From positions 186,001-250,000 of the forward strand of contig NZ_SJXM01000004.1 of the NCBI RefSeq assembly GCF_004336805.1: DNA of 64,000 bases. Direction: 5' to 3'. A program made the position numbers and the translations under genes. Position 1 is the stretch's first letter. Each line of letters opens with the position of its first letter. The stretch is from Aeromicrobium sp. IC_218. Its GTDB lineage: Bacteria; Actinomycetota; Actinomycetes; Propionibacteriales; Nocardioidaceae. Shown here one piece after another: positions 8,879 to 35,139 of the stretch. The notes under the pieces are model-generated. The model worked only from the letters and a program-made list of their open reading frames with translations, was not told where the DNA came from and searched no databases.

Positions 8879-9954
8879 GGCGCGCGATCGCCGCCGCGCT
8901 GGCCGGGGTCCTCGGCGCGTCCGTCCTGAGCCTGGTCGGCGCCGCGCCGGCCGCCGCCTGCACGCCCGCGCAGATGCCGTGCAACCCGGCCGGCTCGAGC
9001 GGCGGTGGCCCGTCCACGCCGGTCGACGGCAGCAGCGGCACCCGCTACGACAACTACACGTCCACCACGCAGAGCTGCTCGGTGTACGCCAGCGGCAACG
9101 GCATGGGCTCGTACTGCGTCTCGCTGGGCGGGGGCGACGCCCTGAAGACGCTGCGTGAGATGTACGGCGGCCAGGAGTTCCAGCAGTGCCGCTACAGCGA
9201 CCTGCCACCGGGCATCCAGGCCCCGTTCAACACGCGGCCGTCCGAGGGTCGCTACATGCTCGTGCGCTGCCTGCGCGGCGTCGACTTCGACACCTACAGC
9301 GGCGGTCGCAACCGCAGCCTCTCGCTCGAGATCCGCTTCGTGGAGTTCGGCGAGGACGTCCGCGACCAGGGTGGCGCCCTCAACGACTTCCTCTGGGGCC
9401 GCATCAGCCAGGACACCTTCCTGCCGGTGCCGTTCCTGCAGCCGAAGCCGAACCCGACGCCGATCGTGGGCGTGCCGACCTACCTGACGTTCCAGTGGCG
9501 CAACCCGGTGAACGAGCAGGTCGTCGCCCAGGGCCCGTTCGCGAACCGCGGCGAGGTCGGCGGCCCCTACATCGAGATCGAGACGCCGACCGGCCTGACG
9601 ATGGTCGCGCAGGCGACCGAGGTGCGGCTCGACCCGAACCAGGAGGGCATCGACGCCGTCACCTGCGCGCCGACCACGCCGTACGTCGTCGGTGCCGCCC
9701 CGAAGGATCAGCCCGCGGACGCCTGCAGCATCACGTTCCCGCGCTCGTCGGCGTCCGCCCGCAAGTTCGCCACCCGCGACATCCCGTCGAACCTGCCGGA
9801 CTCGTTCTACGCGGACGTGCAGGTCGACTGGCGGGTCCAGTACGGCGAGGGCGACCAGCTGCAGGACCTGGGCGACTTCACGATGCGACTCAAGCAGCCC
9901 ATCCCCGTGCAGGAGGTCCAGGCGCCGAACCAGCCTCCGGCCGTCATCTACTGA
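8875..9954 (+). CDS. exported protein of unknown function
   Basis: A 359-residue protein. GTG 8875 overlaps the lipoprotein stop. Residues 1-27 form a Sec signal peptide (VRRAIAAALAGVLGASVLSL, then APAAA before the mature CTPAQ). The mature part begins with a Cys-, Gly- and Ser-rich segment (CTPAQMPCNPAGSSGGG) and carries several paired cysteines (QSCSVYAS, SYCVSLG, QQCRYSD, VRCLRG, VTCAPT, DACSIT), consistent with disulfides outside the cell. There is no membrane anchor or sorting signal at the C-terminus. The family is not recognised. The order lipoprotein, exported protein, LysM-BTAD protein after a Tad operon suggests that all three serve the same surface structure. Confidence 0.72.
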   Translation: MRRAIAAALAGVLGASVLSLVGAAPAAACTPAQMPCNPAGSSGGGPSTPVDGSSGTRYDNYTSTTQSCSVYASGNGMGSYCVSLGGGDALKTLREMYGGQEFQQCRYSDLPPGIQAPFNTRPSEGRYMLVRCLRGVDFDTYSGGRNRSLSLEIRFVEFGEDVRDQGGALNDFLWGRISQDTFLPVPFLQPKPNPTPIVGVPTYLTFQWRNPVNEQVVAQGPFANRGEVGGPYIEIETPTGLTMVAQATEVRLDPNQEGIDAVTCAPTTPYVVGAAPKDQPADACSITFPRSSASARKFATRDIPSNLPDSFYADVQVDWRVQYGEGDQLQDLGDFTMRLKQPIPVQEVQAPNQPPAVIY

Positions 9955-22451: not shown

Positions 22452-22465
22452 TAAGCAAGCGCTTA
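22452..22465. promoter_or_regulatory. candidate TetR-type operator before the MaoC operon
   Basis: TAAGCAAGCGCTTA (22452-22465) is an imperfect palindrome lying 21 bases before the MaoC-like start. It resembles the AnCAAGnnCTTGnT site of KstR2-type TetR regulators of acyl-CoA metabolism. No such regulator is encoded beside it, so the assignment is tentative. Confidence 0.45.
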
Positions 22466-22486
22466 CCTCCGTCGGGAAGGACCCCC

Positions 22487-22945
22487 ATGACGCGCACGTT
22501 CGCGAACCTCGACGAGTTCCGTGCCCAGGTGGGCAACGAGCTCGGCACCAGCGACTGGATCACCGTCACCCAGGAGCAGATCGACACCTTCGCCGACGCC
22601 ACCGGCGACCACCAGTGGATCCACGTCGATCCCGAGAAGGCGGCGAAGGGCCCGTTCGGCACGACGATCGCCCACGGCTACCTGACGCTGTCGCTGCTGC
22701 CGGTCATGGTCGGTGCCATCTACGAGGTGCAGAACCTCGCGATGGGCGTGAACTACGGCGCCAACAAGATCCGCTTCCCCGAGCCCGTGCCGGTCGACTC
22801 GCGCATCCGCGCGACCGCCACCCTCACCGACGTCACCGACATCGCCATCGGCAGCCAGATCACGATGAAGGTCGTGGTCGAGCGCGAGGGCGCGGCCAAG
22901 CCGGCGTGCGTCGCCGAGGTCGTCTACGTCTACGCAGGAGCCTGA
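22487..22945 (+). CDS. MaoC-like (R)-enoyl-CoA hydratase
   Basis: A 152-residue single hot-dog protein of the MaoC/NodN type. The hydratase motif is DATGDHQWIHVDPEKA followed by GTTIAHGYLTLSL, with catalytic Asp41 and His46. These enzymes hydrate trans-2-enoyl-CoA to (R)-3-hydroxyacyl-CoA, or the reverse. The length and motif match mycobacterial HtdZ-like proteins. It is the first gene of a three-gene operon; the acyl-CoA dehydrogenase starts one base after its stop. Confidence 0.88.
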   Translation: MTRTFANLDEFRAQVGNELGTSDWITVTQEQIDTFADATGDHQWIHVDPEKAAKGPFGTTIAHGYLTLSLLPVMVGAIYEVQNLAMGVNYGANKIRFPEPVPVDSRIRATATLTDVTDIAIGSQITMKVVVEREGAAKPACVAEVVYVYAGA

Positions 22946-22946
22946 C

Positions 22947-24167
22947 ATGCACTTCGCCCACGACGAGAAGACCACCGAGCTGCTCGAGCGCGTCACCGCG
23001 TTCATCGACACCGAGGTCGTCCCCCGCGAGAAGGTCCTGCACGAGCAGGTCGCCGAGAACGTCCGCACCGACTCCTGGGCGCGCCCGGCCGTCGTCGGTG
23101 AGCTCCAGGCGCTGGCCAAGCAGCAGGGCCTGTGGAACTTCTTCCTGCCCGGCGACGAGGGCGCGGGCCTGACGAACCTGCAGTACGCCCCGCTCGCCGA
23201 GGCCACCGGACGCTCGATCCAGCTCGCACCGGCCGCGTTCAACTGCGCCGCGCCCGACACCGGCAACATGGAGGTGCTGACCCAGTTCGGCACCGAGGAG
23301 CAGAAGAAGCAGTGGCTCGAGCCGCTGCTCGCCGGCGAGATCCGCTCCGCCTTCGCCATGACCGAGCCGGATGTCGCGTCGTCGGACGCGACCAACATCG
23401 CCCTGCGCATCGAGCGTGACGGCGACGAGTACGTCATCAACGGCCGCAAGTGGTGGATCACCGGGGCGATGAACCCCGACTGCGCCATCTTCATCGTGAT
23501 GGGCAAGACCGACCCGGACGCCGAGCGGCACCGCCAGCAGTCGATGGTGCTCGTCCCGCGCGACACCCCGGGTCTCGAGGTCGTCCGCGGCATGCACGTC
23601 TTCGGCTACCAGGACCGCGACCACGGCGGCCACGCCGAGCTGCGGTTCACCGACGTCCGCGTGCCGGTCTCGAACGTGATCGGCGCCGAAGGTGCGGGGT
23701 TCGCCATCGCCCAGGCCCGCCTGGGGCCGGGCCGCATCCACCACTGCATGCGCTCGATCGGCCTGGCCGAGCGCGCGGTGGAGCTGATGTGCGAGCGCGC
23801 CTCGTCGCGCGTGGCGTTCGGCAAGCCGATCGCCGACCAGGGCGTCGTCCGCGACTGGATCGCCGAGTCGCGCGTGCGCCTGGAGCAGCTGCGCCTGCTC
23901 GTGCTCAAGACCGCGTGGCTCATGGACACGGTCGGCAACAAGGGCGCGCACACCGAGATCCAGTCGATCAAGATCGCGACGCCGCAGACGGTCGAGTGGA
24001 TCCTCGACAAGGCCATCCAGACCCACGGCGCCGGTGGCCTGAGCCAGGACTTCTGGCTGGCCGAGGCGTTCGCCGGCATCCGCACGCTGCGCTTCGCCGA
24101 CGGGCCGGACGAGGTGCACAAGAACTCGCTGGCCAAGGCCGAGCTGCGGCGTCATGCGCGTCGCTGA
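22947..24167 (+). CDS. acyl-CoA dehydrogenase (ACAD10/11-like)
   Basis: A 406-residue FAD-dependent acyl-CoA dehydrogenase. Features are FAFAMTEPDVASSDATN (flavin and substrate loop), KWWITGAMNPDC, the middle beta domain, and LGPGRIHHCMRSIGLAERA plus QTHGAGGLSQDFWLA in the C-terminal helical domain. The segment around GRIHHCMR is typical of the ACAD10/ACAD11 branch, which handles branched or long-chain substrates. Electrons would go to ETF and on to an EtfD-like reductase such as the one at 13132-16095. The gene overlaps the SDR gene by 14 bases. Confidence 0.9.
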   Translation: MHFAHDEKTTELLERVTAFIDTEVVPREKVLHEQVAENVRTDSWARPAVVGELQALAKQQGLWNFFLPGDEGAGLTNLQYAPLAEATGRSIQLAPAAFNCAAPDTGNMEVLTQFGTEEQKKQWLEPLLAGEIRSAFAMTEPDVASSDATNIALRIERDGDEYVINGRKWWITGAMNPDCAIFIVMGKTDPDAERHRQQSMVLVPRDTPGLEVVRGMHVFGYQDRDHGGHAELRFTDVRVPVSNVIGAEGAGFAIAQARLGPGRIHHCMRSIGLAERAVELMCERASSRVAFGKPIADQGVVRDWIAESRVRLEQLRLLVLKTAWLMDTVGNKGAHTEIQSIKIATPQTVEWILDKAIQTHGAGGLSQDFWLAEAFAGIRTLRFADGPDEVHKNSLAKAELRRHARR

Positions 24168-24966
24168 CGGCACGAGCGCCGTCGTCACCGGTGCGGCGGG
24201 CGGCATCGGGGCGGCGGTCGCGCAGCGGCTGCTCGAGCGTGGGGCCTCGGTCACGCTGAGCGACCTGGACGCCGAGCGGCTCGCGGCCACGGCGTCCGCG
24301 CTCGAGGCCGAGCACCCCGGACGCGTGGCGCACCGGGCCGGTGACGCGGCCGACGAGGCCTACCTGCGCGAGCTGTTCGCCACGGCCGAGGGGCTGGCCG
24401 GGCCGGTCGGCCTGTTCGTGGCGAATGCGGGCATCTTCCGCGGCTTCGGGCTCGAGGCGGACGACGCGGCGTGGGAGTCGTCGTGGGACGTCAACGTCAT
24501 GGCCCACGTGCGCGCCGCGCGGCTCCTCGTGCCGCAGTGGCTCGAGCGCGGCGAGGGCTGCTTCGCCGTCACCGCGTCCGCAGCCGGCCTGCTGACCCAG
24601 CTCGGGCTGCCGACGTACGCGGTCACCAAGCACGCCGCCGTCGGGTTCGCCGAGTGGCTGGCCGCGACCTACGGCGACCGGGGCGTGCAGGTGGCGGCGC
24701 TGTGCCCCATGGGCGTCCGCACCCCGCTCGTCGACCAGGCCGAGGCCACGCAGGACGAGCAGGCCCGCCTCGGCATGCGCTCGGTCACCGAGGCCGGCGC
24801 CGTGCTGGAGCCGCTCGAGGTGGCCGACTCGCTGCTCACGGCGATCGACGAGGGCCGCTTCCTGGCGCTGCCGCACGCCGAGGTCGGCACGATGCACGCG
24901 CGCAAGGCCGCCGACCCGGACCGCTGGATCGCCGGCATGCAGCGCCTGCGCCGCTCGCTCGACTGA
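24154..24966 (+). CDS. short-chain dehydrogenase/reductase
   Basis: A 270-residue classical SDR. The cofactor motif is TGAAGGIG (residues 12-19), the aspartate in LSDLDAERL suggests NAD rather than NADP, NAG is at 91-93, and the catalytic residues are Ser142, Tyr155 and Lys159 (YAVTK). As the last gene of the hydratase and acyl-CoA dehydrogenase operon it may oxidise a 3-hydroxyacyl-CoA. ATG 24154 lies 14 bases inside the preceding gene, which supports translational coupling. Confidence 0.87.
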   Translation: MRVADGTSAVVTGAAGGIGAAVAQRLLERGASVTLSDLDAERLAATASALEAEHPGRVAHRAGDAADEAYLRELFATAEGLAGPVGLFVANAGIFRGFGLEADDAAWESSWDVNVMAHVRAARLLVPQWLERGEGCFAVTASAAGLLTQLGLPTYAVTKHAAVGFAEWLAATYGDRGVQVAALCPMGVRTPLVDQAEATQDEQARLGMRSVTEAGAVLEPLEVADSLLTAIDEGRFLALPHAEVGTMHARKAADPDRWIAGMQRLRRSLD

Positions 24967-24988: not shown

Positions 24989-25678
24989 TCAGCGGGTGGC
25001 CTGGGCCAGGGCCGCGCTGAGCTCGTCGGCCGAGACCGGCTTGGCCGGCGCGGTGCCGCCGGGCTGCACCGTCGACGGGTCCGCGAAGTACGGGACGCCG
25101 TAGGCCGGGGTGTTCGGCTCGTAGCGCCAGCCCTCGGCCAGCGGCCCGGCGTCGAGCGCGTCGAAGCCCAGCTCGTCGAGCAGCTGGACGACCTCGCCCT
25201 TGGCCCGCTCGTCGTCGCCGGCGATGGCCAGCGCCGAGCGCTCGGCGTCGCCGGAGGGGCGGGCCAGCTCGGGGATGTGCGCGAAGGCGATGTTGTTGAA
25301 CGCCTTCACCACGTGCGAGTCGGGCAGGTGGCGCTGGAGCAGCTCGGCGGAGGTGGCCTCGCCGGAGTCGAGCTCGGCGATCTGGCCGTCGCGCTGCGGG
25401 TAGTAGTTGTTGGTGTCGATGACGGTCTTGCCGCGCAGCGGCTCGACCGGGACCGACTCGTAGGCGGCGAGCGGGATGGTCACGACGACGACGTCGCCGG
25501 CCTCGGCCGCCTCCTGGGGCGTCGCGGCCCGGGCGCGGTCGCCGAGCTCGGCGACCAGGTCGGCGAGGGTGTCGGGCCCGCGCCGGTTGCTCAGGACGAC
25601 GTCGTGCCCCGCCTTGACCGCGAGTCGCGCGATGGCGCTGCCGATGTTTCCGCTGCCGATGAGTCCGATGGTGGTCAT
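24989..25678 (-). CDS. NADP-binding F420-dependent-reductase-like protein
   Basis: A 229-residue protein with an N-terminal Rossmann fold: TTIGLIGSGNIGSAIARLAV (GSGNIGS) and VVLSNRRGPDTL, where the RR after Asn favours NADP. VVVTIPLAAYESVP and VIDTNNYYPQRDG match the family of coenzyme F420:NADP oxidoreductase (Fno) and its F420-independent NAD(P)-binding relatives. The middle helix region (HVVKAFNNIAF) is also shared. Which electron partner it uses cannot be decided. It is convergent with the SDR gene (22 bases) and follows the MFS gene on the same strand after 29 bases. Confidence 0.8.
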   Translation of the reverse strand: MTTIGLIGSGNIGSAIARLAVKAGHDVVLSNRRGPDTLADLVAELGDRARAATPQEAAEAGDVVVVTIPLAAYESVPVEPLRGKTVIDTNNYYPQRDGQIAELDSGEATSAELLQRHLPDSHVVKAFNNIAFAHIPELARPSGDAERSALAIAGDDERAKGEVVQLLDELGFDALDAGPLAEGWRYEPNTPAYGVPYFADPSTVQPGGTAPAKPVSADELSAALAQATR

Positions 25679-25707: not shown

Positions 25708-27012
25708 CTATTCCGTGACGGCGCCCACGGTGGCCGGCGTCCGCGTGCGGTGGCGGGTCGAGATCGAGGCGGTGATGACGGTGAACGCGAGCACCGCGAC
25801 GAGGCACACGACCAGCCAGGCACGCCATCCGCCGGTGGCGTCGACGACTCGCGGGGCGAACAGCACGGCGGCCAGGATGCACAGCCGGCTGACCATGTGC
25901 TGCAGGCCGAACGCGGTGCCCTGGGCGTCGGGGTGGATCTCCTCGACGTGCTCGGAGAAGCTCGCCTGCCAGGTGCCGAAGGTCGCCGCGACCGAGCCAC
26001 CCAGCGCGACGAACAGCGCGACCACGACCCAGACCGGCAGCTCGGCGCCGGCCGAGGTGACGGCGATGAGCACGGCCAGGCAGGCGCACGCGGCCACGCC
26101 GCCGGAGAGCAGGTACGGCTTGCGGGCCTGCGTGGTGTCGGACTTGCGCGCCCACACCAGGCTGCCGAGCAGGGCGGCCGCCCAGAACGACATGGTCACG
26201 ACGGACGCCTCGCGCACGCCCATGTCGAGCTGGTCGACGAGCATCTTCTGCGCGTAGGTGTTCATGGTCGCGAGCAGGACGAACATGAGCGACATCGCGG
26301 CCACGTGCGCGGCCACGACGCGGTGCTGGAGCAGCGCCCAGGCGCCGGGCCGGCGGGCGTCGGCGAACCGGTGCTCGACGTGCTCGTCGGAGTGGCGGGT
26401 GTGCTGGCGCACCTCGGGGGCGAGGTCCTGCAGGAAGACCATGACGAGCACCGACCCGGCGAAGGCGAAGCCAGCCATGATGTACAGCTGCGAGTGCCAG
26501 GTGCCGAAGAAGTCCAGGGTCGCGGCGGCGATGCCGGCGGCGACGAAGTTGGCGCCGAGCGAGCCCCACGACCAGAACGCGAACGCCTGGGCGCGGCCCA
26601 CGCGCGGGGTGAAGTCGCGGATGAGCGGCTGCGTGCCGGACATCGCGACGCCCTCGACGAACGCGAGCAGGATGCGAGCGGCGGTGAACTGGCCCGGCGT
26701 GTGCGACCAGGCCATGAACAGGCAGGACGCGGCGGACAGGAACATCCACGGGACGATCACCCGCACGCGTCCGACGCGGTCGACCAGCCGGCCGCCGAGG
26801 AAGCCCGCGAGCGCGCCGCAGAGCAGGGACGCGGCGGTGATCAGGCCGTACGTCTTGAGCGACATGCCGATGTCGTCGAGCAGCAGCGGCAGCACCGGGG
26901 CGAGCTGGCCCTCGTACGCGGAGATGAAGCACGCGATGACGACGACGGCCACGAGGACCCGGCGCCTGGACCCGGTCGGGTACTCCGTGAGCTCGCGGCG
27001 GTAACGCATCAT
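25708..27012 (-). CDS. MFS transporter of the putative alkyl-sulfate regulon
   Basis: A 434-residue major facilitator with 12 predicted helices in two halves. The loop 2-3 motif is GGRLVDRVGRVRVIVP, and the two halves are joined by a His-rich cytoplasmic stretch (RQHTRHSDEHVEHRF). The substrate is not known. It has a ribosome-binding site AAGGGAAG before ATG 27012; ATG 27009 follows in frame. A 21-bp operator at 27026-27046 lies directly upstream and matches sites before the alkyl sulfatase and the acyl-CoA synthetase, so it probably moves an ester, alcohol or acid of that pathway. Confidence 0.85.
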   Translation of the reverse strand: MMRYRRELTEYPTGSRRRVLVAVVVIACFISAYEGQLAPVLPLLLDDIGMSLKTYGLITAASLLCGALAGFLGGRLVDRVGRVRVIVPWMFLSAASCLFMAWSHTPGQFTAARILLAFVEGVAMSGTQPLIRDFTPRVGRAQAFAFWSWGSLGANFVAAGIAAATLDFFGTWHSQLYIMAGFAFAGSVLVMVFLQDLAPEVRQHTRHSDEHVEHRFADARRPGAWALLQHRVVAAHVAAMSLMFVLLATMNTYAQKMLVDQLDMGVREASVVTMSFWAAALLGSLVWARKSDTTQARKPYLLSGGVAACACLAVLIAVTSAGAELPVWVVVALFVALGGSVAATFGTWQASFSEHVEEIHPDAQGTAFGLQHMVSRLCILAAVLFAPRVVDATGGWRAWLVVCLVAVLAFTVITASISTRHRTRTPATVGAVTE

Positions 27013-27025
27013 GTCGCTTCCCTTC

Positions 27026-27046
27026 TTCTGGACACTCTGTCTAGAA
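27026..27046. promoter_or_regulatory. TetR-type operator, site A (MFS gene)
   Basis: TTCTGGACACTCTGTCTAGAA minus its last base is near-perfectly palindromic: TTCT-R-GACA-N3-TGTC-Y-AGAA over 21 bases. It lies 14 bases before the MFS start. The core CTGGACR-N3-TGTCYAG recurs at 27731-27747 and 34366-34382. Confidence 0.75.
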
Positions 27047-27105
27047 AGTGTCGGCGAGGGGACTGTACGTGATGTGATGCGGCGCACACAAGCGGTCGGA
27101 CGGAT

Positions 27106-27702
27106 CTACTCCGGGTCGAAGCCGCTGGCCCAGTACCGACCGCGGCGCGAGAGCTCCACGAGCGTCTCGATGACGTCGTCCAGCGCCGGTCGCGGAGCGG
27201 CGGACTCCAGCCACCACAGGAGGACGGACGTCTGCTCGCCGGCCCAGGCGCGGGCCACGACGCGCAGGTCGACCCGGGGGGTCACGCCCAGCGCGTCGGC
27301 ACGGGCCCGGAAGACCTCGAGCGCGCGGTCGCCCCAGGCGTCCGCGAGCAGCCGCAGGCCGCGCCCGTCGCCCTCTCCGCGCAGGATCATCCGGTACAGG
27401 TCGGCCTGCTCGGCCGCGTGCCGGAACAGCGTGTCGACGGGCTTGCCGGTGAAGCCCTTCTCGTTCACGTCGGTCACCGGGGCGAGGCGCGCGTCGAGGT
27501 CGTCGATGACGCTGCGCACGACGTGGTCGTACAGCTTCTCCTTGTCCGGGAAGTGCGTGTAGAACGTCGCGCGGCCGACCCCGGCCTCGGCGACGATGTC
27601 CTCGACGGTGAGGGCCGAGTAGCCCCGGGCCAGCGACAGGGACACCAGGGCGTCCCGCAGCAGGGCGCGCGTCCGGGTGCGGCGCTTGTCCTCGCGTTCC
27701 AT
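27106..27702 (-). CDS. TetR-family repressor beside the alkyl sulfatase
   Basis: A 198-residue TetR-family protein. The helix-turn-helix is in TVEDIVAEAGVGRATFYTHF (about residues 33-52); the rest is a helical ligand domain. It is divergent from the alkyl sulfatase gene, with 81 bases between the two starts, and a 17-bp palindrome sits in that gap (27731-27747). Two more copies of the palindrome are found before the MFS gene and before the acyl-CoA synthetase operon. The simplest reading is that this repressor controls itself and all three units and responds to an acyl-CoA, fatty alcohol or fatty acid. The ligand is inference. Confidence 0.87.
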   Translation of the reverse strand: MEREDKRRTRTRALLRDALVSLSLARGYSALTVEDIVAEAGVGRATFYTHFPDKEKLYDHVVRSVIDDLDARLAPVTDVNEKGFTGKPVDTLFRHAAEQADLYRMILRGEGDGRGLRLLADAWGDRALEVFRARADALGVTPRVDLRVVARAWAGEQTSVLLWWLESAAPRPALDDVIETLVELSRRGRYWASGFDPE

Positions 27703-27730
27703 GCCGCAGTTCTAGCAGAGCCCCTACTTG

Positions 27731-27747
27731 CTGGACGTGATGTCCAG
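27731..27747. promoter_or_regulatory. TetR-type operator, site C (tetR and alkyl sulfatase)
   Basis: CTGGACGTGATGTCCAG is a palindrome with 6-base arms and a 5-base centre. It lies 28 bases before the repressor start and 36 bases before the alkyl sulfatase start, where it could block both promoters. Confidence 0.78.
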
Positions 27748-27783
27748 TAATGTCGGTCCGGACGACCACGAGCGGGGGACCCG

Positions 27784-29559
27784 ATGGACGAGCAGACCCA
27801 CGACGCGGACCGCGGCTTCCTGGCCGCCCCGCTGGCCGACCAGGTGCTGGACGCGTCCGGCCGGGTGGTCCACGACGGCACGGCCTACGCGTTCCTGGAC
27901 GCCGACGCCCCGGACACCGTGCACCCCGACCTCTGGGAGCACAGCCGGCGCACTGCGCGGGCCGGCCTGTACGAGGTCTGCGAGGGCGTATATCAGGTGC
28001 GCGGCACGGACCTGGCCAACCTCACGGTCGTCGAGGGCCGCACCGGCGTGGTCGTGATCGACACCCTCACGTCCGCCGAGACCGCCGCCGCGGCGCTGGC
28101 GCTCTACCGCTCGGTGCGCGGCGACCGGCCGGTGCGCGGCGTCGTCATCACCCATCCGCACGCCGATCACTTCGGCGGCATCGACGGCGTGCTCGAGGGC
28201 GCCGGCGAGGTGCCGGTCGTCGTCCCCGAGGGCTTCGCCGAGCACGCGGTGAGCGAGAACCTGCTGGCCGGTCCGGCGATGTCGCGCCGGTCGGCGTACA
28301 TGTACGGCACCGCGCTGGAGCCCTCGCCCACCGGTCACGTGGGCTGTGGGCTCGGTCCGCGCCTGGCCCGCGGCAGCACCGGCCTGCCGCGGCCGACGCA
28401 CGAGGTGCGCCGCACCGGCGAGGTCGTCGAGATCGACGGCGTCGTCCTGGAGATGCAGATGACGCCCGGCACGGAGGCGCCGGCGGAGATGAACGTGCTG
28501 ATCCCCGAGCGCCGCGCGCTGTGCGTGGCCGAGAACGCCGTCCACTCGATGCACAACATCATCACGCTGCGCGGCGCCCAGGTGCGTGACGCCCGGGCGT
28601 GGGCGCGCTACCTCGACGAGACGATCGAGCTCTACGCCGACCGGGCCGACGTCGTCCTGGCCACCCACCACTGGCCCACATGGGGCGCGGACCGGGTGCG
28701 CTCCTTCCTGGAGGACCAGCGCGACGTCTACGCCTACCTTCACGACCAGACCGTGCGGCTCATGAACCGCGGCCTCACCCCGCGCGAGATCGCCGAGCAG
28801 CTGGAGCTGCCGCCCGCGCTGGCCGAATCACCGGCCGGGCACGGCTACTACGGCTCGCTCAGCCACAACGTGAAGGGCGTCTATCAGCGCTACCTGGGCT
28901 GGTACGACGCGAATCCCGCCCACCTGTGGCCGCTGCCGCCCGAGCAGGAGGCGCAGCACTGGATGCGCGTCGTCGGCGGCACCGGGCGCGCGCTCGCCGC
29001 CGCGCGCGAGATGGTGCTGGAGGGCGAGCTGCGCTTCGCCGCCACGCTGCTCGACCACGTCGTCTTCGCCGACCCGCAGGACCGGGTCGCGCGCGAGCTG
29101 CTGGCCGAGGTCTACCGCCGGCTCGCCGCCCAGGTCGAGAACGCGACGTGGCGCAACTGCTTCCTGACCGGCGCGCTGGAGCTCGTCGAGGGTCCGCCGC
29201 CGGCGTCCGCTCCCGGTGGCGGACTGCTCGGCGTGGTCGGCGTCGAGGACCTGCTGGACGTCCTCGCGGTGCGGGTCGACGGGCCGCGCGCCTGGGAGGC
29301 GGACACGTCCTTCGACTGGGACGTGCCGGGCTCCGGCACCTGGCGGCTGTGGCTGCGCCGGGGCGTGCTGCGCCACCGGCGCCTGGCCGACGGCGCCGAT
29401 CCCGGCGCGGCCGTCGTGCGTGCGGACGTCCGGGGTCTCGTGGGCCTGCTGCGCGGCGACGCGTCCGGTGCCCGGGTCAGCGGCGACGGCACCCGCGTGG
29501 GTCTCGTGCTGGGCGCCCTCGAGCCGGCGTCCGCGCCGTTCGCGGTCGTCGAGCCCTAG
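27784..29559 (+). CDS. SdsA-type alkyl sulfatase (metallo-beta-lactamase fold)
   Basis: A 591-residue alkyl sulfatase that hydrolyses linear alkyl sulfate esters to alcohol and sulfate. The metal site is HPHADH at residues 124-129; later ligand candidates are E231 in GTEAPAEMN, E250 in VAENAVH, and H295/H296 in ATHHWPTWG. The stretch ENAVHSMHNIITLRG followed by VRDARAWARYLDE is characteristic of SdsA1. The dimerisation domain (about 300-470, with HGYYGSLSHNVKGVYQRYLG) and a C-terminal SCP2-like domain (about 480-590) are both present. Unlike SdsA1 it lacks a signal peptide, so it should act in the cytoplasm and the substrate must be imported. Its stop is four bases from the convergent exported-protein gene. 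Confidence 0.92.
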   Translation: MDEQTHDADRGFLAAPLADQVLDASGRVVHDGTAYAFLDADAPDTVHPDLWEHSRRTARAGLYEVCEGVYQVRGTDLANLTVVEGRTGVVVIDTLTSAETAAAALALYRSVRGDRPVRGVVITHPHADHFGGIDGVLEGAGEVPVVVPEGFAEHAVSENLLAGPAMSRRSAYMYGTALEPSPTGHVGCGLGPRLARGSTGLPRPTHEVRRTGEVVEIDGVVLEMQMTPGTEAPAEMNVLIPERRALCVAENAVHSMHNIITLRGAQVRDARAWARYLDETIELYADRADVVLATHHWPTWGADRVRSFLEDQRDVYAYLHDQTVRLMNRGLTPREIAEQLELPPALAESPAGHGYYGSLSHNVKGVYQRYLGWYDANPAHLWPLPPEQEAQHWMRVVGGTGRALAAAREMVLEGELRFAATLLDHVVFADPQDRVARELLAEVYRRLAAQVENATWRNCFLTGALELVEGPPPASAPGGGLLGVVGVEDLLDVLAVRVDGPRAWEADTSFDWDVPGSGTWRLWLRRGVLRHRRLADGADPGAAVVRADVRGLVGLLRGDASGARVSGDGTRVGLVLGALEPASAPFAVVEP

Positions 29560-29563
29560 GGCC

Positions 29564-30157
29564 TCAGCCCGCGGCGAGCGCGCGGCTCTTCTGGGCGGTG
29601 CGGATCTTCTTCGCCGACAGCGCATCGCCGTAGATCAGGACCGAGGCGTCCTTCTCGACCACGCGGAAGGCCGTGGCCGCCATGCGCACCTTGGGCAGGT
29701 CGCCCAGGCACGAGCGCTTCACGGTGGCCGTCATCCAGCCGTTCCTGCCCTTGCGCCCCTTCAGGCTCGCTGAACACGCGTGCTCGTAGCCGGCGTCCAT
29801 GACGTCGGCGTCCGAGGAGTCGAGGAACCCGTGGAGCTCGTAGTCGGGCTCGTCGCTGCCAGGGGCGTAGAACTCGACGCTCAGGCCCGCGTCCGACTTC
29901 AGCCGGGAGAACTTCACGGTGACGCTGACGGTCCTGCGGCGGTGGTCGTACCGGACGCTCTTGGCGTCGATGCCCGACTTCTTGCTCTCGGTCCTGCCGA
30001 GCTGGCGCTCCTGGTAGCCCTCGTCCCACATGGTCGTCAGCACGACGTCGGCCCGCTTGTCCTTGATCGTGGCCCGCTCGGCGTGGGCGGCGGTGCCGGT
30101 GCCGAGGACGGCGACGGTCGCCAGGCCGGCGGCGAGGGCGAGGGAGGTGAGGCGCAC
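29564..30157 (-). CDS. exported protein, tandem paralogue 1
   Basis: A 197-residue protein with a Sec signal peptide (RLTSLALAAGLATVAVLG, cleavage after AHA near residue 26). The mature domain has ATIKDKRADVVLTT, SKKSGIDAKSVRYDHRRRTV and two cysteines, one in GYEHACSAS and one in KRSCLGDLP, that could pair. It ends with a basic tail (SAKKIRTAQKSRALAAG). The start is GTG 30157 with GAAGGA upstream. Its neighbour on the same strand is a clear paralogue. The family is not recognised; the beta-strand pattern suggests a small extracellular domain. Cells may secrete both proteins together. Confidence 0.72.
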   Translation of the reverse strand: MRLTSLALAAGLATVAVLGTGTAAHAERATIKDKRADVVLTTMWDEGYQERQLGRTESKKSGIDAKSVRYDHRRRTVSVTVKFSRLKSDAGLSVEFYAPGSDEPDYELHGFLDSSDADVMDAGYEHACSASLKGRKGRNGWMTATVKRSCLGDLPKVRMAATAFRVVEKDASVLIYGDALSAKKIRTAQKSRALAAG

Positions 30158-30188
30158 GGGGTTCCTTCGGTGGTGGGGAGAAGGGGAC

Positions 30189-30794
30189 TCAGCCCGCGGC
30201 GAGCAGGCGCGTCTTCTGCGGCGTGCGGATCTTCTTGACCGATAGGGCGTCCCGATAGGTGACGAGCGCGCCGTCCTGCTGGATCAGCCGCGAGGCACCG
30301 ACAGACATGCGGATCTCGGGCAGGTCGCCCAGGCACGACCGCTCGATCGTCAGGGTCATCCAGCCGTTCCTGCCCCGGCGGCTCGCGAAGTCGCCCGAGC
30401 AGGCGTCCTCGTAGTCCTCGGTGCCGTAGACGAAGGACTTGGACTCGCCCACCTCGCCGTAGGCCTGGAAGTCGGGCTCCTTGCTGCCCGGCGCGTAGAT
30501 TCCCACGTACATCCCCGAGCCGGACTTCAGCCGCGAGAACCGCACCGTGACGCTGATCGTCCGACGGTCGTGGTCGAAGCGCACGCTCTTCGCGTCGATC
30601 CCGGACTTCTTGCTCGACGTCGTGTTGAGCTGACGCTGCTCCACCATCTCGTACTCGTCCGCGGAGTACGTCGTGCGCACGACGTCCGCCCGCTTGTCCT
30701 TGATCGAGGCCCGCTCGGCGTGCGCGGCGGTGCCGGAGCCCAGCACGGTGACGGTCGCCAGGCCGGCGGCGAGGACGAGGGAGGTGAGGCGCAC
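30189..30794 (-). CDS. exported protein, tandem paralogue 2
   Basis: A 201-residue protein from GTG 30794 (GAAGGA upstream), the tandem duplicate of the gene 31 bases downstream. Signal peptides are almost the same (RLTSLVLAAGLATVTVLGSG), as are SIKDKRADVV, SKKSGIDAKSVRFDHDRRT, GRNGWMT, RSCLGDLP and the tail VKKIRTPQKTRLLAAG. The middle differs most, with APGSKEPDFQAYG against APGSDEPDYELHG. Cysteines in EDACSGD and RSCLGD are kept. No function is known for either. Confidence 0.72.
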   Translation of the reverse strand: MRLTSLVLAAGLATVTVLGSGTAAHAERASIKDKRADVVRTTYSADEYEMVEQRQLNTTSSKKSGIDAKSVRFDHDRRTISVTVRFSRLKSGSGMYVGIYAPGSKEPDFQAYGEVGESKSFVYGTEDYEDACSGDFASRRGRNGWMTLTIERSCLGDLPEIRMSVGASRLIQQDGALVTYRDALSVKKIRTPQKTRLLAAG

Positions 30795-30958
30795 GGCGTT
30801 CCTTCGGGAGTGCGGACGAGGGCCGGGCGTCGTGCCCGTCCTCCCGGATCGTAGGTCCGCGACGCGCTCCCGCGGAGCCATTCGCCCGGATCGGTGGGGG
30901 CGTCTGGGATCCTGGGTCGCCGTCCACCGGACGGGGTGAGGTGCCGACGAGGAGCGGG

Positions 30959-31543
30959 ATGATGGACGGAGAGCGCCTGATCGCGCGGAGCCGGTTGCGT
31001 TCGGCGTGGCCGATCCTGCTGGTGACCGCCTCGGCCGGCGCCGTCATCGGAGCGGTCCTGGGGTTGGCCGTCGCCCTGACAGACCCCGAGCTCGCGACGA
31101 CCGAGTCGAAGGTCGACGCCGTGCTGATCAGCCTCACCATGTTCGGCCTGGTGTGCCTCCCGGCGGCGTTGGTCCCTCTGGCCATGTGGTCCGTGTCGGC
31201 CGCGCGCGTCAGCTACTGGGTGGCGGGCACTCGCGTCGTCGCGCGCCGCGGTCGACGGATCGTCGCGGAGCTCGATGCCCGTGACGTCGCGTCGGTCCGG
31301 GTCATCGGGTACTCCAGCGTGTGGCCGATGATCTTCGGGCTGGGCACGATCTGGTCGTTCCAGACCGACCTTCCCCGCATCGGGTACGAGACGAGGGCTC
31401 CGGTGCGCGGCCGGACCTTACACACCTTGCCGAGGATCCTGCTCGTGGGCCGAGACGTGCCCGAACGCATCCGGGACGAGCTCTTCGCCGCCCTGCGGCT
31501 GGCCTCCGTGCGCGAGTCCGTCCTCGACCCGTCTACCCAGTAG
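30959..31543 (+). CDS. two-helix membrane protein with a PH-like domain
   Basis: A protein of 194 residues; ATG 30959 and ATG 30962 are adjacent, with GAGGAG at 30949-30954. Two membrane helices (about residues 18-41 and 56-80) precede a cytoplasmic stretch VSYWVAGTRVVARRGRRIVA followed by ELDARDVASVRV, which has the strand-turn-strand look of bacterial PH (DUF304-like) domains. A C-terminal helix (PERIRDELFAALRLASV) follows. Function unknown. It is divergent from the tandem exported proteins and convergent with the acyl-CoA dehydrogenase. Confidence 0.6.
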   Translation: MMDGERLIARSRLRSAWPILLVTASAGAVIGAVLGLAVALTDPELATTESKVDAVLISLTMFGLVCLPAALVPLAMWSVSAARVSYWVAGTRVVARRGRRIVAELDARDVASVRVIGYSSVWPMIFGLGTIWSFQTDLPRIGYETRAPVRGRTLHTLPRILLVGRDVPERIRDELFAALRLASVRESVLDPSTQ

Positions 31544-31548
31544 GACGC

Positions 31549-31586
31549 ACGAGGGCCCGGGACGCCGACGCGTCCCGGGCCCTCGT
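31549..31586. terminator. bidirectional hairpin between convergent genes
   Basis: A stem of 16 bp (31549-31564 with 31571-31586) with a 6-base loop, sitting six bases after the plus-strand stop and eight bases before the minus-strand stop. It should end transcription from both sides. Confidence 0.8.
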
Positions 31587-31593
31587 CGCGCGG

Positions 31594-32766
31594 TCAGGCC
31601 AGGAGCGCCTTGGCGATGCCGTTGCGCTGGATCTCCGAGGAGCCGGTGAGCACGCGGAACATGCGCAGCTTCTTGAACGCCGACTCGATCTCCGAGCCCT
31701 GCACCATCCCCGCCTTGCCGTGCAGCTGCATGGCGTCGTCGGCGATGCGGAAGGCGTTCTCGGCCACGAACAGCTTGCACATGAACGCCTCGGTGGCCGG
31801 ACGCCGTCCGGCGTCCAGCGCCGCCAGGGCGTCGTACGTCATGGACCGCGCCGCGTAGTAGGCCGTCGCCATGTCGGCGATGCGGTGCTGCACGGACTGC
31901 AGGTCGGCCAGGCGGCCGCCGAAGACCTGACGGTCCTTCGCGAACTCGATCGTCAGCTCCAGGACCCGCCGGGCCTGGCCCAGCACCGTCGGGCAGTGCA
32001 GCAGCCGGTTGACCACGACGCGTCCGACGCCGATGCGCAGGCCGTCGCCGACCTCCCCGAGCAGCTGGTCGGGCCCGACGTAGCAGTCCTCGAGCACGAT
32101 GTCGGCCTCGATGTGCTCGCCCGAGAGGGGCACATCACCGGCCTCGACCCGGCAGCCGGGGCTGTCGAGGTCGACCAGGAACGCGGAGTAGCGCTCGTCC
32201 TCCCCGGCCATGCGGGCCACGAGCACCGAGAAGTCCGCGAACGGGCCGGCCGAGCTGAACACCTTGCGGCCGGTGATCCGCCAGCCGTCGCCGTCGGGCG
32301 TCGCGGTCGTCGACATCGCGCGGACGTCCGAGCCGGCGTCGGTCTCGGTGAGCGAGAAGCAGCACGCGCGCTCGCCCCGCACGACCGGCAGCAGGTAGCG
32401 CTCGACCTGCTGGGGGGTCGCGACCTCGAAGATCGAGCCGGCCCGCAGCGGACCGCCCATGTCGCCGAGCACCGAGTGGTACAGCACGCGCCCGGACGCG
32501 CCGACCTCCTCCTTGAGCACGGCCAGCTCGGTGAACGACAGGCCGCGGCCGCCGAGCTCGGGCGGCAGGTGGACGCCGTAGAACCCCAGCTCCCGGCTCC
32601 GCCTCCACACCGGCTCCAGCACGGAGCGGTCGTAGACGGACGCGGGGCCGAGGTCGTGGGCGCGCTCGTAGTCGGCGAGCTCGCCGTCGAGGTAGGCGCG
32701 CAGGTCGGCCACGAGCGGGCCGAGCGTGGGGGAGTCGTCGTAGGACGGACGCAGGTCGAAGGTCAT
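31594..32766 (-). CDS. acyl-CoA dehydrogenase in an operon with acyl-CoA synthetase
   Basis: A 390-residue FAD-dependent acyl-CoA dehydrogenase. Conserved segments are CCFSLTETDAGSDVRAMST (flavin loop), WRITGRKVFSSAG, FAKDRQVFGGRLADLQSVQH, QLHGKAGMVQGSEIE and the C-terminal LTGSSEIQRNGIAKALL. It introduces a trans-2 double bond into acyl-CoA and feeds ETF. It lies eight bases downstream of the acyl-CoA synthetase stop, so the two form one unit under the operator at 34364-34384. Activation and first oxidation of a fatty acid would thus be co-regulated with the alkyl sulfatase. Confidence 0.9.
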   Translation of the reverse strand: MTFDLRPSYDDSPTLGPLVADLRAYLDGELADYERAHDLGPASVYDRSVLEPVWRRSRELGFYGVHLPPELGGRGLSFTELAVLKEEVGASGRVLYHSVLGDMGGPLRAGSIFEVATPQQVERYLLPVVRGERACCFSLTETDAGSDVRAMSTTATPDGDGWRITGRKVFSSAGPFADFSVLVARMAGEDERYSAFLVDLDSPGCRVEAGDVPLSGEHIEADIVLEDCYVGPDQLLGEVGDGLRIGVGRVVVNRLLHCPTVLGQARRVLELTIEFAKDRQVFGGRLADLQSVQHRIADMATAYYAARSMTYDALAALDAGRRPATEAFMCKLFVAENAFRIADDAMQLHGKAGMVQGSEIESAFKKLRMFRVLTGSSEIQRNGIAKALLA

Positions 32767-32774
32767 GGGGCTCC

Positions 32775-34346
32775 TCAGTTCACGGCCCGGTCGGCGCCGG
32801 TCCAGTAGCGGGCGCGGACGGCGCGGCGGTCGATCTTGCCGTTGCGGTTGGCCGGTAGGGCGTCGACGACGTCCACCGACCGGGGCTTCTTCAGGCGGTC
32901 GAGCCGGTCGGCGCAGAAGGCGATCAGCGCGTCGGCGTCGACGGTGGCGCCGGGCCGCGGCACGACGACGGCCTTGACCGCCTCGCCCCACGTCTCGTCG
33001 GGCACGCCCACGACGCAGGCCTCGGCGACGTCGGGGTGCTCGTAGACGGCGGCCTCCACCTCGCTGCAGTAGATGTTGAAGCCGCCGGAGATGATCATGT
33101 CCTTCAGGCGGTCGACGATGAAGACGTAGCCGTCCTCGCGCATCCAGGCCACGTCGCCGGTCAGCACCCACCCGTCGCGGAACGTCTCCGCGCTCAGTCC
33201 GGGCTCGTGCCAGTAGGACGTCACGCAGTCGTCGCCGCGCACCACCAGCTCGCCCGTCGTGCCGGCCGGGACGGGGCGCAGGGCGTCGTCCACGACCATG
33301 ACCTCGGTGTCGTACAGCGCGCGTCCGCACGACAGCAGCAGGTCGGGGTCGGACTCGATGCCGCGCACGACGTCCTCGGCGGTCAGCACGAGCACGCCGC
33401 TGGTCGTCTCGGCCTGCCCGTAGCCCTGGGCGACGATCGGCCCGAAGAAGTCGACGGCGTCGCGCAGGCGCTGCGGCGACACCGGTGCCCCGCCGATCGT
33501 GACGCTGCGCAGCGACGACAGGTCGAACGCGTCGCGGCCGGGCAGGCCGAGCAGCAGGTTGAGCATCGTCGGCACCATGAACGTCGTGGTCACGCGCTCG
33601 CGCTCGACCAGCGCCAGGAACTCCGCCGGGGTGAACGCCGGCATGACGACGATCTTCGCGCCGCGGCTCAGGGCGGCGAGCAGCACCATGCCCGAGGCGT
33701 GGGTGATGGGGCCGGCGACCAGGTAGGTGTCGCGCCAGGTCAGCGCGCCGCCGGGCTCCATGAGCCGCTTGCGCACGTTGGCCAGCCGGTTGCCGGTGGT
33801 CTGCACCGCGGCCTTGAGCCGTCCGGTGGATCCGGACGTGAAGTTCAGGACGCAGGGGTCGTCGAGGGCGAGGTCGGGTCCGTCGAAGCGGGCGTCGCCG
33901 CCGGCGACCAGGGCCTCGTACGACACCGACTCGGCGGTGTCGGCCGGTCCCTCGGCGTCCAGGACGACGACGGTCGCGTCGCGTCCGGAGCGCTTGACCG
34001 CGTCCACCGCGAGCGACGCGTGGCTCGGGTCGGCCACGACGACGCGGACGTCCGCGTCCTCGACCACGTGAGCGGCCTCCTCCAGCCCCAGGCGGAAGTT
34101 GATCGGGACGCGCAGGAAGCCGCCCTTGACGAGGGCGACCTCGACCTCGACGAGCTCCGCGCGGTTGGCCGCGTACGTCGCCACGGCGGCCCCGACGGGC
34201 AGGCCGAGAGCGGTGAGCGCGGAGGCCAGTCTGCTGGACCGTTCGTCCAGCTGGGCGTAGGTGAGGCGCTGGTCGCCGCACACGAGCGCCTCCTGCTGCG
34301 ACCAGTGGGTCGCGGCACGGGAGACGAGTCGACCGAGGTTCGGCAT
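32775..34346 (-). CDS. AMP-forming acyl-CoA synthetase
   Basis: A 523-residue ANL-superfamily ligase. Motifs are the P-loop FTSGSTGRLKA (a slightly unusual version of TSGTTG-x-PKG), GYGQAETT, GDVAWMREDGY, the hinge RLKDMIISGGFNIY and the catalytic lysine in NRNGKIDR. It activates a carboxylic acid to its CoA thioester; chain length cannot be read. Start ATG 34346 follows GGAAGGACACCC; an opening further upstream in frame overlaps the operator and is unlikely to be translated. The operator 34364-34384 lies 17 bases before the start, and the acyl-CoA dehydrogenase is next. Confidence 0.9.
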   Translation of the reverse strand: MPNLGRLVSRAATHWSQQEALVCGDQRLTYAQLDERSSRLASALTALGLPVGAAVATYAANRAELVEVEVALVKGGFLRVPINFRLGLEEAAHVVEDADVRVVVADPSHASLAVDAVKRSGRDATVVVLDAEGPADTAESVSYEALVAGGDARFDGPDLALDDPCVLNFTSGSTGRLKAAVQTTGNRLANVRKRLMEPGGALTWRDTYLVAGPITHASGMVLLAALSRGAKIVVMPAFTPAEFLALVERERVTTTFMVPTMLNLLLGLPGRDAFDLSSLRSVTIGGAPVSPQRLRDAVDFFGPIVAQGYGQAETTSGVLVLTAEDVVRGIESDPDLLLSCGRALYDTEVMVVDDALRPVPAGTTGELVVRGDDCVTSYWHEPGLSAETFRDGWVLTGDVAWMREDGYVFIVDRLKDMIISGGFNIYCSEVEAAVYEHPDVAEACVVGVPDETWGEAVKAVVVPRPGATVDADALIAFCADRLDRLKKPRSVDVVDALPANRNGKIDRRAVRARYWTGADRAVN

Positions 34347-34363
34347 GGGTGTCCTTCCGACGT

Positions 34364-34384
34364 TTCTGGACACAGTGTCTATCA
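34364..34384. promoter_or_regulatory. TetR-type operator, site B (acyl-CoA synthetase operon)
   Basis: TTCTGGACACAGTGTCTATC plus one base matches site A base for base over TTCTGGACAC and again over TGTCTA, with a different centre. It lies 17 bases before the synthetase start and 48 bases before the divergent DUF202 start. Confidence 0.78.
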
Positions 34385-34432
34385 TTGTGGTGTCGAGCAC
34401 CAGGGCCCGGCGCGACGAGCGGGAGGACGACG

Positions 34433-34804
34433 ATGGCGCGATCGGCGCACGAGCGTCGGCCCCGACGCGTGTACGGCGAGGGCGACGAGCCGGACCCGCG
34501 CTTCACGCTCGCCAACGAGCGGACGTACCTGGCCTGGGTGCGCACGGCGCTCGCCCTGACCGCGGCCGGGGTCGCCCTGGACGCGGTCGCGCTCGACCTC
34601 GACGCGCGGCTGCAGGTGGTGGTGAGCCTCGTCCTGGTCGTGCTCGGCGCGTCCGTCCCGCTGCAGGCGTGGCGCGGCTGGGCCCGGACCGAGCGCGCCC
34701 TCCGCCGCCGGGAGCCGCTCCCGGCACCGGGCTGGGCTCCCGTGCTCGCCGTCGGCGTCACGGTGGCGGGCGTGGTGCTGGCCGTGGGGATCGTCCTGGC
34801 ATGA
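34433..34804 (+). CDS. DUF202 (YidH-like) membrane protein
   Basis: A 123-residue protein with three membrane helices and the family signature FTLANERTYLAWVRTALALT near residues 24-43. YidH-like proteins are small inner-membrane proteins of unknown role. It has a clear ribosome-binding site (GGGAGGA) before ATG 34433 and overlaps the next, related gene by four bases. It is divergent from the acyl-CoA synthetase and shares its promoter region, so it might also respond to the operator at 34364-34384. Confidence 0.8.
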   Translation: MARSAHERRPRRVYGEGDEPDPRFTLANERTYLAWVRTALALTAAGVALDAVALDLDARLQVVVSLVLVVLGASVPLQAWRGWARTERALRRREPLPAPGWAPVLAVGVTVAGVVLAVGIVLA

Positions 34805-35139
34805 GCCTGTTCGACCCGGGCCTGCAGCCGGAGCGGACGACGCTCGCGTGGCGCCGCACCGCGCTGTCGATGGCGGCCGCCGCCGCGGTGCTGGCGCGAG
34901 TGGCGCAGGCGCGCGGCGACCACGTCGCGGCGGCGGCGTCCGCGGTGGGCGGGGCGGTCGCGGCGGCCTGCTGGCTGCTGGCCGGGCGTCGGTACGCGAG
35001 GGTCACCGCGTCGCTGCGCAAGCGCGGCGACCTGACCGGCGCCCCGCTCGGTCCGGCCGCGGCGGCCCTGTGCGCGGCCAGCCTGTGCCTGTCGCTGGCG
35101 GCGGCGCGGCTGGTCCTGGCTGGCGGCGGTGCGTCCTGA
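34801..35139 (+). CDS. second DUF202 membrane protein
   Basis: A 112-residue protein with three helices; the signature is LQPERTTLAWRRTALSM near the N-terminus, the shorter YidG-like form of DUF202. The ATGA overlap with the preceding DUF202 gene suggests the two make a complex, as adjacent yidH and yidG genes do in other bacteria. Function unknown. Confidence 0.78.
   Translation: MSLFDPGLQPERTTLAWRRTALSMAAAAAVLARVAQARGDHVAAAASAVGGAVAAACWLLAGRRYARVTASLRKRGDLTGAPLGPAAAALCAASLCLSLAAARLVLAGGGAS

Follow-up and report, generated by a model that had tools for sequence, protein, structure and literature searches.

A predicted TetR-type regulon dispersed over four promoters in Aeromicrobium sp. IC_218 joins an SdsA-type sulfatase to CoA activation and an unusual acyl-CoA dehydrogenase-fold protein

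We investigated a candidate regulon around a tetR gene in a 64,000-nucleotide stretch (the window; G+C content 73.5%) of contig NZ_SJXM01000004.1 from Aeromicrobium sp. IC_218, whose genome comprises 3,314,464 bases. The assignment of an MFS transporter, an SdsA-type sulfatase and an operon of an acyl-CoA synthetase (ACS) and an acyl-CoA dehydrogenase (ACAD)-fold protein to one TetR-type regulator with a shared operator, as claimed in an initial annotation of this DNA, is well supported by sequence comparison: the same genes form an operon or a divergent pair in relatives, and the tetR, ACAD and serine hydrolase genes co-occur. Judging from gene occurrence, the conserved core of the system is TetR, ACS and ACAD, with SdsA as one exchangeable front end. 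We regard it as probable that this is a TetR-repressed, dispersed regulon for import, deconjugation, CoA activation and a non-canonical ACAD step, leaning to carboxylate-bearing substrates. The operators and principal genes are as follows.

27022..27050 (core 27028-27044, CTGGACACTCTGTCTAG), no strand: operator A, 5′ of the MFS gene; exact CTGGACR-N3-TGTCYAG; matrix score 25.0
27725..27753 (core 27731-27747, CTGGACGTGATGTCCAG), no strand: operator B, between tetR and sdsA; exact motif; matrix score 19.1
34360..34388 (core 34366-34382, CTGGACACAGTGTCTAT), no strand: operator C, between the ACS gene (minus strand) and a pair of DUF202 genes (plus strand); one mismatch to the motif; matrix score 38.2
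G000:C21:53045-53061, on another contig: operator D, 5′ of a PF00144 serine hydrolase gene; exact motif
25708..27009, minus strand: MFS transporter (PF07690, 154.5 bits)
27106..27702, minus strand: TetR-family regulator with the helix-turn-helix domain TetR_N (PF00440, 51.9 bits, cutoff 24); relatives in 80 loci
27784..29559, plus strand: type III (metallo-beta-lactamase fold) alkylsulfatase homologue of the SdsA/Pisa1 type, 591 amino acids (PF00753, PF14863, PF14864)
31594..32766, minus strand: protein of the acyl-CoA dehydrogenase fold that lacks Glu at both known catalytic-base positions (Pfam, PDB alignments, 80-row alignment)
32775..34346, minus strand: acyl-CoA synthetase, AMP-binding (PF00501, 276.1 bits; PF13193)

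The gene families had been named correctly, as Pfam and PDB comparisons bear out, and the three palindromes first reported in the window are all real. However, only A and B match the reported motif exactly, while C departs from it by one mismatch, and the strings TTCTGGACAC and TGTCTA, ascribed to A and B, are actually common to A and C. In the genome of strain IC_218, the exact motif CTGGACR-N3-TGTCYAG gave four rows, corresponding to three sites (A, B and the new site D), against a chance expectation of 0.086 rows under a first-order Markov model derived from the window. With up to one mismatch, 13 rows were obtained as compared with three in the reversed control, and the looser core TGGACA-N3-TGTCYA occurred exactly at A, C and D only (0.144 rows expected). 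In the window alone, the motif with three mismatches was in mild excess (27 where 17.2 would be expected, a count reached by 2 of 100 shuffles), and TGGACNNNNNGTCYA was found at seven places of the genome (12 rows; 8.7 rows by chance), four of which are A to D. In Aeromicrobium massiliense, the 29-mer of operator A is identical, the core of operator B is kept, and site D is kept with a matrix score of 31.9.

For the comparison with relatives, contigs were scanned with a seven-row tetR alignment, and the best 80 of 427 confirmed loci were used, with stored stretches that reach up to 10 kb on each side of the locus and in some cases end at contig ends. A 29-bp operator matrix was built from the tetR–ACS gaps of 78 loci minus three duplicates (75 gaps) by taking the best core match per gap and then refining it; the seed was the core motif of the initial annotation, and the training excluded the sequences of the window and A. 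massiliense. The three loci left out of the matrix were L078 and L104, from the same genomes as L050 and L051, and L102, which is close to L098; all three are kept in the 80-row ACAD count, the 80-locus counts keep L102 beside L098, and one strain contributes both L088 and L109.

As a result, the matrix placed C, A and B as the top three places in the window, with the next place scoring 14.6. Within the 1,551,745 bases of the 80 loci, 150 sites scored at least 18 versus none in the reversed sequence, and a core score of at least 10 was reached in 61 of the 75 tetR–ACS gaps versus at most 7 of 75 in 200 random-segment sets. The flanks outside the seed were also conserved when picks were made with the seed only, with G, T and T at positions -5 to -3 in 68, 56 and 69 of the 75 gaps and A at +17 in 71, compared with at most 45 of 75 for the best position in 200 random-segment sets from the same loci. 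The operator consensus is about GTTACTGRACA-N3-TGTCYGNAA, an extended palindrome. Scanning the genome and its relatives, which had been proposed as a check, thus revealed a non-random motif. Chance origin of the palindromes is rejected on the genome-wide counts, the reversed control and the random-segment control, the in-window count alone being weak.

Several further places were rejected as regulon sites: C20:220235 lies within the ACS gene, C2:88990 within an open frame as judged by eye, C20:9167 scores below 10, and 8 of 10 other one-mismatch places of the looser core score below 8. Another one-mismatch place in the genome, C5:62511, scores 9.3. A palindrome CTGGACCGTTCGTCCAG was also noted at window positions 34234-34250 within the ACS coding sequence; it is present in A. 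massiliense and scores below 8.

The tetR loci span 16 actinobacterial genera. Of the 80 loci, 74 contain ACS and ACAD genes, 37 the serine hydrolase, 19 SdsA and 7 the window-type MFS transporter; the 74 loci with ACS–ACAD against the 19 with SdsA rule out SdsA as the core of the system. Gene clusters were derived with a crude gene caller that misses genes (ACAD was clustered in 58 of the 74 tblastn-positive loci), and some cluster names, namely MMPL, some MFS and CoA-transferase members, were assigned by eye. Six loci showed no ACS–ACAD at the thresholds used, five of them from Nocardia (two from one strain) and the sixth being L134 from Amycolatopsis acidicola, where a short frame beside tetR (9462-9881) fuses ACS and ACAD pieces, a decaying copy of the system. 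The ACS gene is divergent from tetR in 73 loci, and in A. massiliense it stands apart from tetR, as it does in the window. Of the 19 SdsA genes, 17 share the strand of ACAD, and 12 lie on that strand at most 300 bp downstream of it. Since tetR is thus divergent from the ACS–ACAD operon in relatives, often with SdsA next, the regulon is supported independently. In Aeromicrobium the genes are spread over several promoters, each unit with an operator, whereas in relatives they are compact.

In relatives, a site was found 5′ of ACS in all 74 loci with ACS, a count that is not independent because the matrix had been seeded with the previously reported core. Beyond the gaps used for training, a site precedes the serine hydrolase in 25 of 37 loci, and in 25 of the 26 where the hydrolase is on the strand opposite ACAD, and the window-type MFS gene in 5 of 7 loci. 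Operators also precede the genes of other MFS proteins, of M20 amidohydrolases, of a CoA-transferase and of MatC/CitMHS-type carriers, and in Nocardia DUF202, FGE and sulfatase genes, some of these names having been given by eye. The regulon is supported because the motif is rare genome-wide and because the fourth site precedes a gene with relatives in 37 of the 80 tetR loci.

Gene co-occurrence was consistent with this assignment. The TetR protein of the window is 98% identical to that of A. massiliense, and tetR is rare among nearer kin: of the 149 genomes of the family, 4 gave a match at E 1e-15, and of the 393 genomes of the class, 12 had one, the IC_218 genome being counted in each. ACAD (E 1e-90) was found in 3 of the 149 family genomes, all with a tetR match (the 98% match, the IC_218 genome and a 41% relative). 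Two of the 149 carry the serine hydrolase (E 1e-60), and each of these has a tetR match as well, even though the hydrolase gene is unlinked to tetR.

We then considered the ACAD-fold protein, to which the initial annotation had ascribed the first oxidation of the acyl-CoA. Its N-terminal, middle and C-terminal domains and overall fold are those of an ACAD, according to Pfam, a structural model (pLDDT 90.6) and the Foldseek and VIA matches of this model (VIA-align Z 39.0 to 42.3 among the 50 matches listed). In the alignment with SCAD (1jqi/2vig), however, the catalytic Glu corresponds to Thr in the window protein (RVLTGSSEIQR versus EIYEGTSEIQR). This residue, Thr378 in loop J–K, and Asn257 were each found in 80 of 80 rows, and NRLLHCP is also invariant; residue numbers follow the frame P0006, which starts four codons before the likely ATG. 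Asn257 aligns with Gly of SCAD and stands at what we take to be the position of the helix-G Glu of isovaleryl-CoA dehydrogenase. The protein shares its fold with isovaleryl-CoA dehydrogenase-type enzymes, in which the base has moved to helix G, but has Thr in loop J–K and, if this correspondence holds, Asn in helix G, and so lacks the Glu of a canonical ACAD in both. Residue 106 is Asp in 72 rows and Glu in 8, and base Asp91 of cyclohex-1-ene-1-carboxyl-CoA dehydrogenase presumably offers a comparison. PMC11659651 gave no match to asp91 or d91. In the literature, the catalytic Glu is described as present in all such enzymes except isovaleryl-CoA dehydrogenase (PMC5798300), with long-chain and benzylmalonyl-CoA dehydrogenases added as exceptions (PMC11659651). 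Thus, an ordinary first oxidation by this protein is doubtful, since Glu is absent from both base positions.

The SdsA homologue matches 7tl5 and 4av7, the latter a sec-alkylsulfatase, with 490 bits and SdsA1 2cfu with 453 bits. It carries the HxHxDH motif (THPHADHFGG at residue 123, conserved in a 24-row alignment), a dimerisation domain (PF14863, 185.4 bits) and a C-terminal alkyl-sulfatase domain (PF14864, 58.1 bits), and is thus a putative alkyl-sulfate hydrolase; no signal peptide was seen by eye at its N-terminus. Relatives of this protein (E 1e-80) occur in 15 of the 149 family genomes, 13 of them without a tetR match, and eight such stretches (L142-L149, about 4.8 kb each) contained no site scoring at least 10. 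A second SdsA-type gene of strain IC_218 (G000:C25:25533-27320, L152) is 49% identical to that of the window, and its 13-kb stretch likewise showed no site scoring at least 10.

Besides SdsA, the exchangeable front ends comprise the serine hydrolase and M20 amidohydrolases, joined in Nocardia by sulfatases of the formylglycine type. Of the five Nocardia loci without ACS–ACAD, four had FGE, a PF00884 sulfatase or both confirmed by Pfam (both in L088 and L108, the sulfatase in L081 and FGE in L123), and in L109 a sulfatase-like frame was recognised by eye only. An operator precedes the FGE gene in L088 and L123; in L108 and L109 one coincides with the start of a DUF202 gene, falling in L109 just within the start set by the crude caller. 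The presence of two unrelated sulfatase classes under one regulator family suggests that the substrate often comes as a sulfate ester. The hydrolase at site D (PF00144, 82.3 bits) gave 202 bits to 4gb7 and about 136 to NylB entries, the 6-aminohexanoate-dimer hydrolases, which are its nearest solved relatives, and its Ser-x-x-Lys motif is conserved in a 39-row alignment.

In the mechanism that we favour, a TetR-family repressor would bind the extended palindrome in its own promoter and in those of the dispersed catabolic regulon, and a substrate-derived ligand, probably the acid or its CoA ester, would free these promoters. Four units would respond: the MFS importer under operator A, perhaps with a downstream oxidoreductase gene; tetR and the type III sulfatase gene under B; ACS–ACAD and the DUF202 pair under C; and the NylB-type hydrolase under D. 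The site at this hydrolase and the two DUF202 genes over operator C are parts that had not been included in the original description. Compounds would then be imported, and exchangeable hydrolases, namely the sulfatase and the serine hydrolase, or in relatives an M20 amidohydrolase or a formylglycine sulfatase, would free an acid, which ACS would join to CoA. The non-canonical ACAD-fold flavoenzyme would act on the CoA ester before β-oxidation-type steps.

As for the compounds, we lean to substrates with a carboxylate of their own, such as sulfated hydroxy acids or esters and amides of an acid. If a sulfated compound already bears a carboxylate, desulfation would give a hydroxy acid usable by ACS, and no alcohol-to-acid step would be needed; with a plain alkyl sulfate, the alcohol oxidation would have to come from elsewhere, as a Glutamicibacter locus described below shows to be possible. 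Acid substrates are supported by the MatC/CitMHS carrier and the CoA-transferase under the operator in some relatives, and by the amidohydrolase and serine hydrolase front ends. Steroid, bile acid and plant hormone conjugates were also considered, with evidence neither way. A more specific proposal, which we put forward tentatively and with less than even confidence, is a widespread actinobacterial regulon for conjugated carboxylic acids in which unrelated, exchangeable deconjugating enzymes (type III sulfatase, formylglycine sulfatase with FGE, NylB-type hydrolase or M20 amidohydrolase) precede a fixed ACS and a Glu-less ACAD-fold flavoenzyme; this enzyme would perhaps use the invariant acid Asp/Glu106 for a reaction other than α,β-dehydrogenation, and in cases such as Glutamicibacter, in which the ordinary step is also required, a canonical second ACAD would have joined the operon.

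A number of observations weigh against the regulon or its proposed substrates. Operator B has the lowest matrix score of the four sites, its homologue in A. massiliense reaches just 10.9 with the 29-bp matrix despite the conserved core, and C17:90336 in the IC_218 genome scores 17.0, nearly equal to B. The serine hydrolase is without a site in 12 of 37 loci, in all of which except L126 it shares the strand of ACAD (11 loci), and the window-type MFS gene in 2 of 7. None of the 19 SdsA genes in the main set is preceded by its own operator, which is expected because the gene sits inside the operon; the A. massiliense gene is counted among these because its operator B scores so low. Moreover, SdsA was not found in 61 of the 80 tetR loci, some of which end at contig ends, and the fourth family genome with a tetR match (G035, 33% identity) gave no ACAD match. 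An aldo/keto reductase gene facing site D and an alcohol dehydrogenase gene in Glutamicibacter, which together with β-oxidation genes suits a released alcohol, both speak against acid conjugates. Finally, TetR binding, induction and the enzyme activities are all predictions from sequence.

The strongest alternative, although we judge it rather unlikely, is the route first proposed for these genes, in which alkyl sulfates such as sodium dodecyl sulfate (SDS) are imported, cleaved to the alcohol, oxidised to the acid and passed by ACS and ACAD into β-oxidation under one repressor. SdsA does belong to the type III alkylsulfatase family, and the genes following it, inspected in the 12 loci where it stands close behind ACAD, gave one case in point: in Glutamicibacter creatinolyticus (L060), SdsA is followed on the same strand by a canonical-Glu ACAD (TYEGTDHMQ), a thiolase, an SDR, a MaoC and a zinc alcohol dehydrogenase. 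This overturned our supposition that alcohol-oxidation genes were absent from these loci, and the proposed entry into β-oxidation gains support from this one relative. Relatives of the alcohol dehydrogenase (E 1e-15) were found in just two further loci of the 80, at a weak 27-28% identity, and the second, canonical ACAD in this operon suggests that the Glu-less ACAD does something else. No alcohol or aldehyde dehydrogenase was found among the named-family genes at operators, no search having been aimed at aldehyde dehydrogenases, and the SDR of the window and the aldo/keto reductase at site D remain candidates.

This alkyl-sulfate route could also draw on MaoC-like, ACAD and SDR genes beside the MFS gene at 22463-24966. 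The MaoC-like gene (22463-22936), whose product is about 52% identical to the L060 MaoC protein and which has a counterpart in A. massiliense, adjoins the ACAD and SDR genes at 22947-24966; this ACAD ends in a DGPDEVH segment and is presumably ACAD10/11-like. The three genes could supply later steps, but were rejected as regulon members, as no operator scoring at least 8 lies 5′ of them in the window, and outside A. massiliense neither their ACAD nor their SDR turned up next to tetR at the thresholds used. A further parallel is the slf module of Psychrobacter plasmid pP62BP1, a sulfatase-plus-CoA-ligase operon proposed to turn SDS into acyl-CoA (PMC3346939). On the other side stand the restriction of SdsA to 19 of the 80 loci and the absence of Glu from both known base positions in all 80 ACAD rows.

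Sulfur scavenging, whereby the regulon would free sulfate from numerous esters during starvation, with the carbon moiety being incidental, we consider very improbable. The two unrelated sulfatase classes under the operator, type III in some genera and the formylglycine type with FGE in Nocardia, would suit it, and sulfatase expression is linked to sulfate limitation in a review (PMC3920027). Nevertheless, most of the 80 loci have ACS–ACAD without SdsA, which fits carbon use. TetR regulators, furthermore, usually respond to small organic ligands. That another regulator binds the palindromes, or that they arose as chance repeats, with TetR acting on itself only, is scarcely credible: operator binding by TetR is indeed a prediction rather than an assay result, but the sites 5′ of ACS (74 of 74 loci, 73 divergent from tetR, with overlap with the training set), the 150 sites against none in reversed sequence, the random-segment control, the rarity of the motif in the genome and the co-occurrence of unlinked genes all argue otherwise.

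Among the matches listed, no openly licensed PMC paper describes the dispersed TetR-type regulon in its title or at the start of its abstract. The nearest published design is the slf operon (PMC3346939), which shares with the present regulon a type III alkylsulfatase, a CoA ligase and a local regulator. It differs by its GMC alcohol dehydrogenase, its aldehyde dehydrogenase and its AraC-type regulator, whereas the regulator here is of the TetR and not the AraC type; the present regulon adds the ACAD-fold enzyme, the MFS importer, the NylB-type hydrolase and the DUF202 genes, is spread over four promoters in the IC_218 genome, and in its relative L060 has a zinc alcohol dehydrogenase within the operon. 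Pisa1 sec-alkylsulfatase (4av7, 2yhe) and SdsA1 (2cfu) are similar to the window SdsA over the full length (about 450 to 490 bits). SdsA/SdsB of Pseudomonas is also a regulated type III alkylsulfatase system, presumably with the same fold as the window SdsA, but its regulator is LysR-type, unlike the TetR-type one here. The 6-aminohexanoate-dimer hydrolases resemble the site D gene product as Ser-x-x-Lys hydrolases, while the regulon context of the latter differs.

With the predicted regulon, a catabolic system seen in 16 actinobacterial genera gains an operator and a regulator that can be put to the test, and two unrelated sulfatase classes, a NylB-type hydrolase and DUF202 proteins are tied to one pathway. 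It also points to an ACAD subgroup of possibly non-canonical chemistry, and indicates genes to delete and ligand classes to try.

Three further genes of the window lie under or near the operators.

24989..25645, minus strand: F420-dependent NADP oxidoreductase-like gene (PF03807), 62 bp after the MFS gene
34433..34804, plus strand: DUF202 membrane protein 1 (PF02656, 56.8 bits), divergent from ACS over operator C
34801..35139, plus strand: DUF202 membrane protein 2 (PF02656, 52.1 bits)

The oxidoreductase-like gene was found, at the threshold used, in one of 89 loci (the 80 tetR loci plus nine from other searches), that of A. massiliense; it is perhaps on the MFS transcript and hence a regulon member. 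The DUF202 genes, found in 7 of the 80 loci by gene clustering, are probably regulated too, since the pair shares operator C and has counterparts in Rhodococcus and Nocardia loci. In two Nocardia loci (L108 11198-14499 and L109 from 11544 onward), a DUF202 gene lies directly 5′ of FGE and formylglycine-type sulfatase genes, the latter two recognised by eye in L109. This arrangement hints that DUF202 proteins work with sulfate-ester catabolism. The nearest solved chain to ACS is FadD8 8ivi (304 bits).

The aldo/keto reductase gene mentioned above (L022 6986-7990) is divergent from the site D hydrolase gene and may share operator D; A. massiliense has a 97% identical copy in the corresponding stretch. 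A carboxyltransferase gene (PF01039) comes directly after sdsA in three Nocardioides loci (L056 3814-5310, L057 3761-5410 and L059 3802-5421), a hint at branched or propionyl-CoA-forming substrates, and in Streptomyces griseoviridis (L078 4360-5235) a gene of the TauE/SafE sulfite exporter family (PF01925) is convergent with sdsA. In the window itself, sdsA is adjoined by two similar genes for small secreted-looking proteins (29564-30157 and 30189-30881; ERAxIKDKRADVV), which constitute a tandem duplication.

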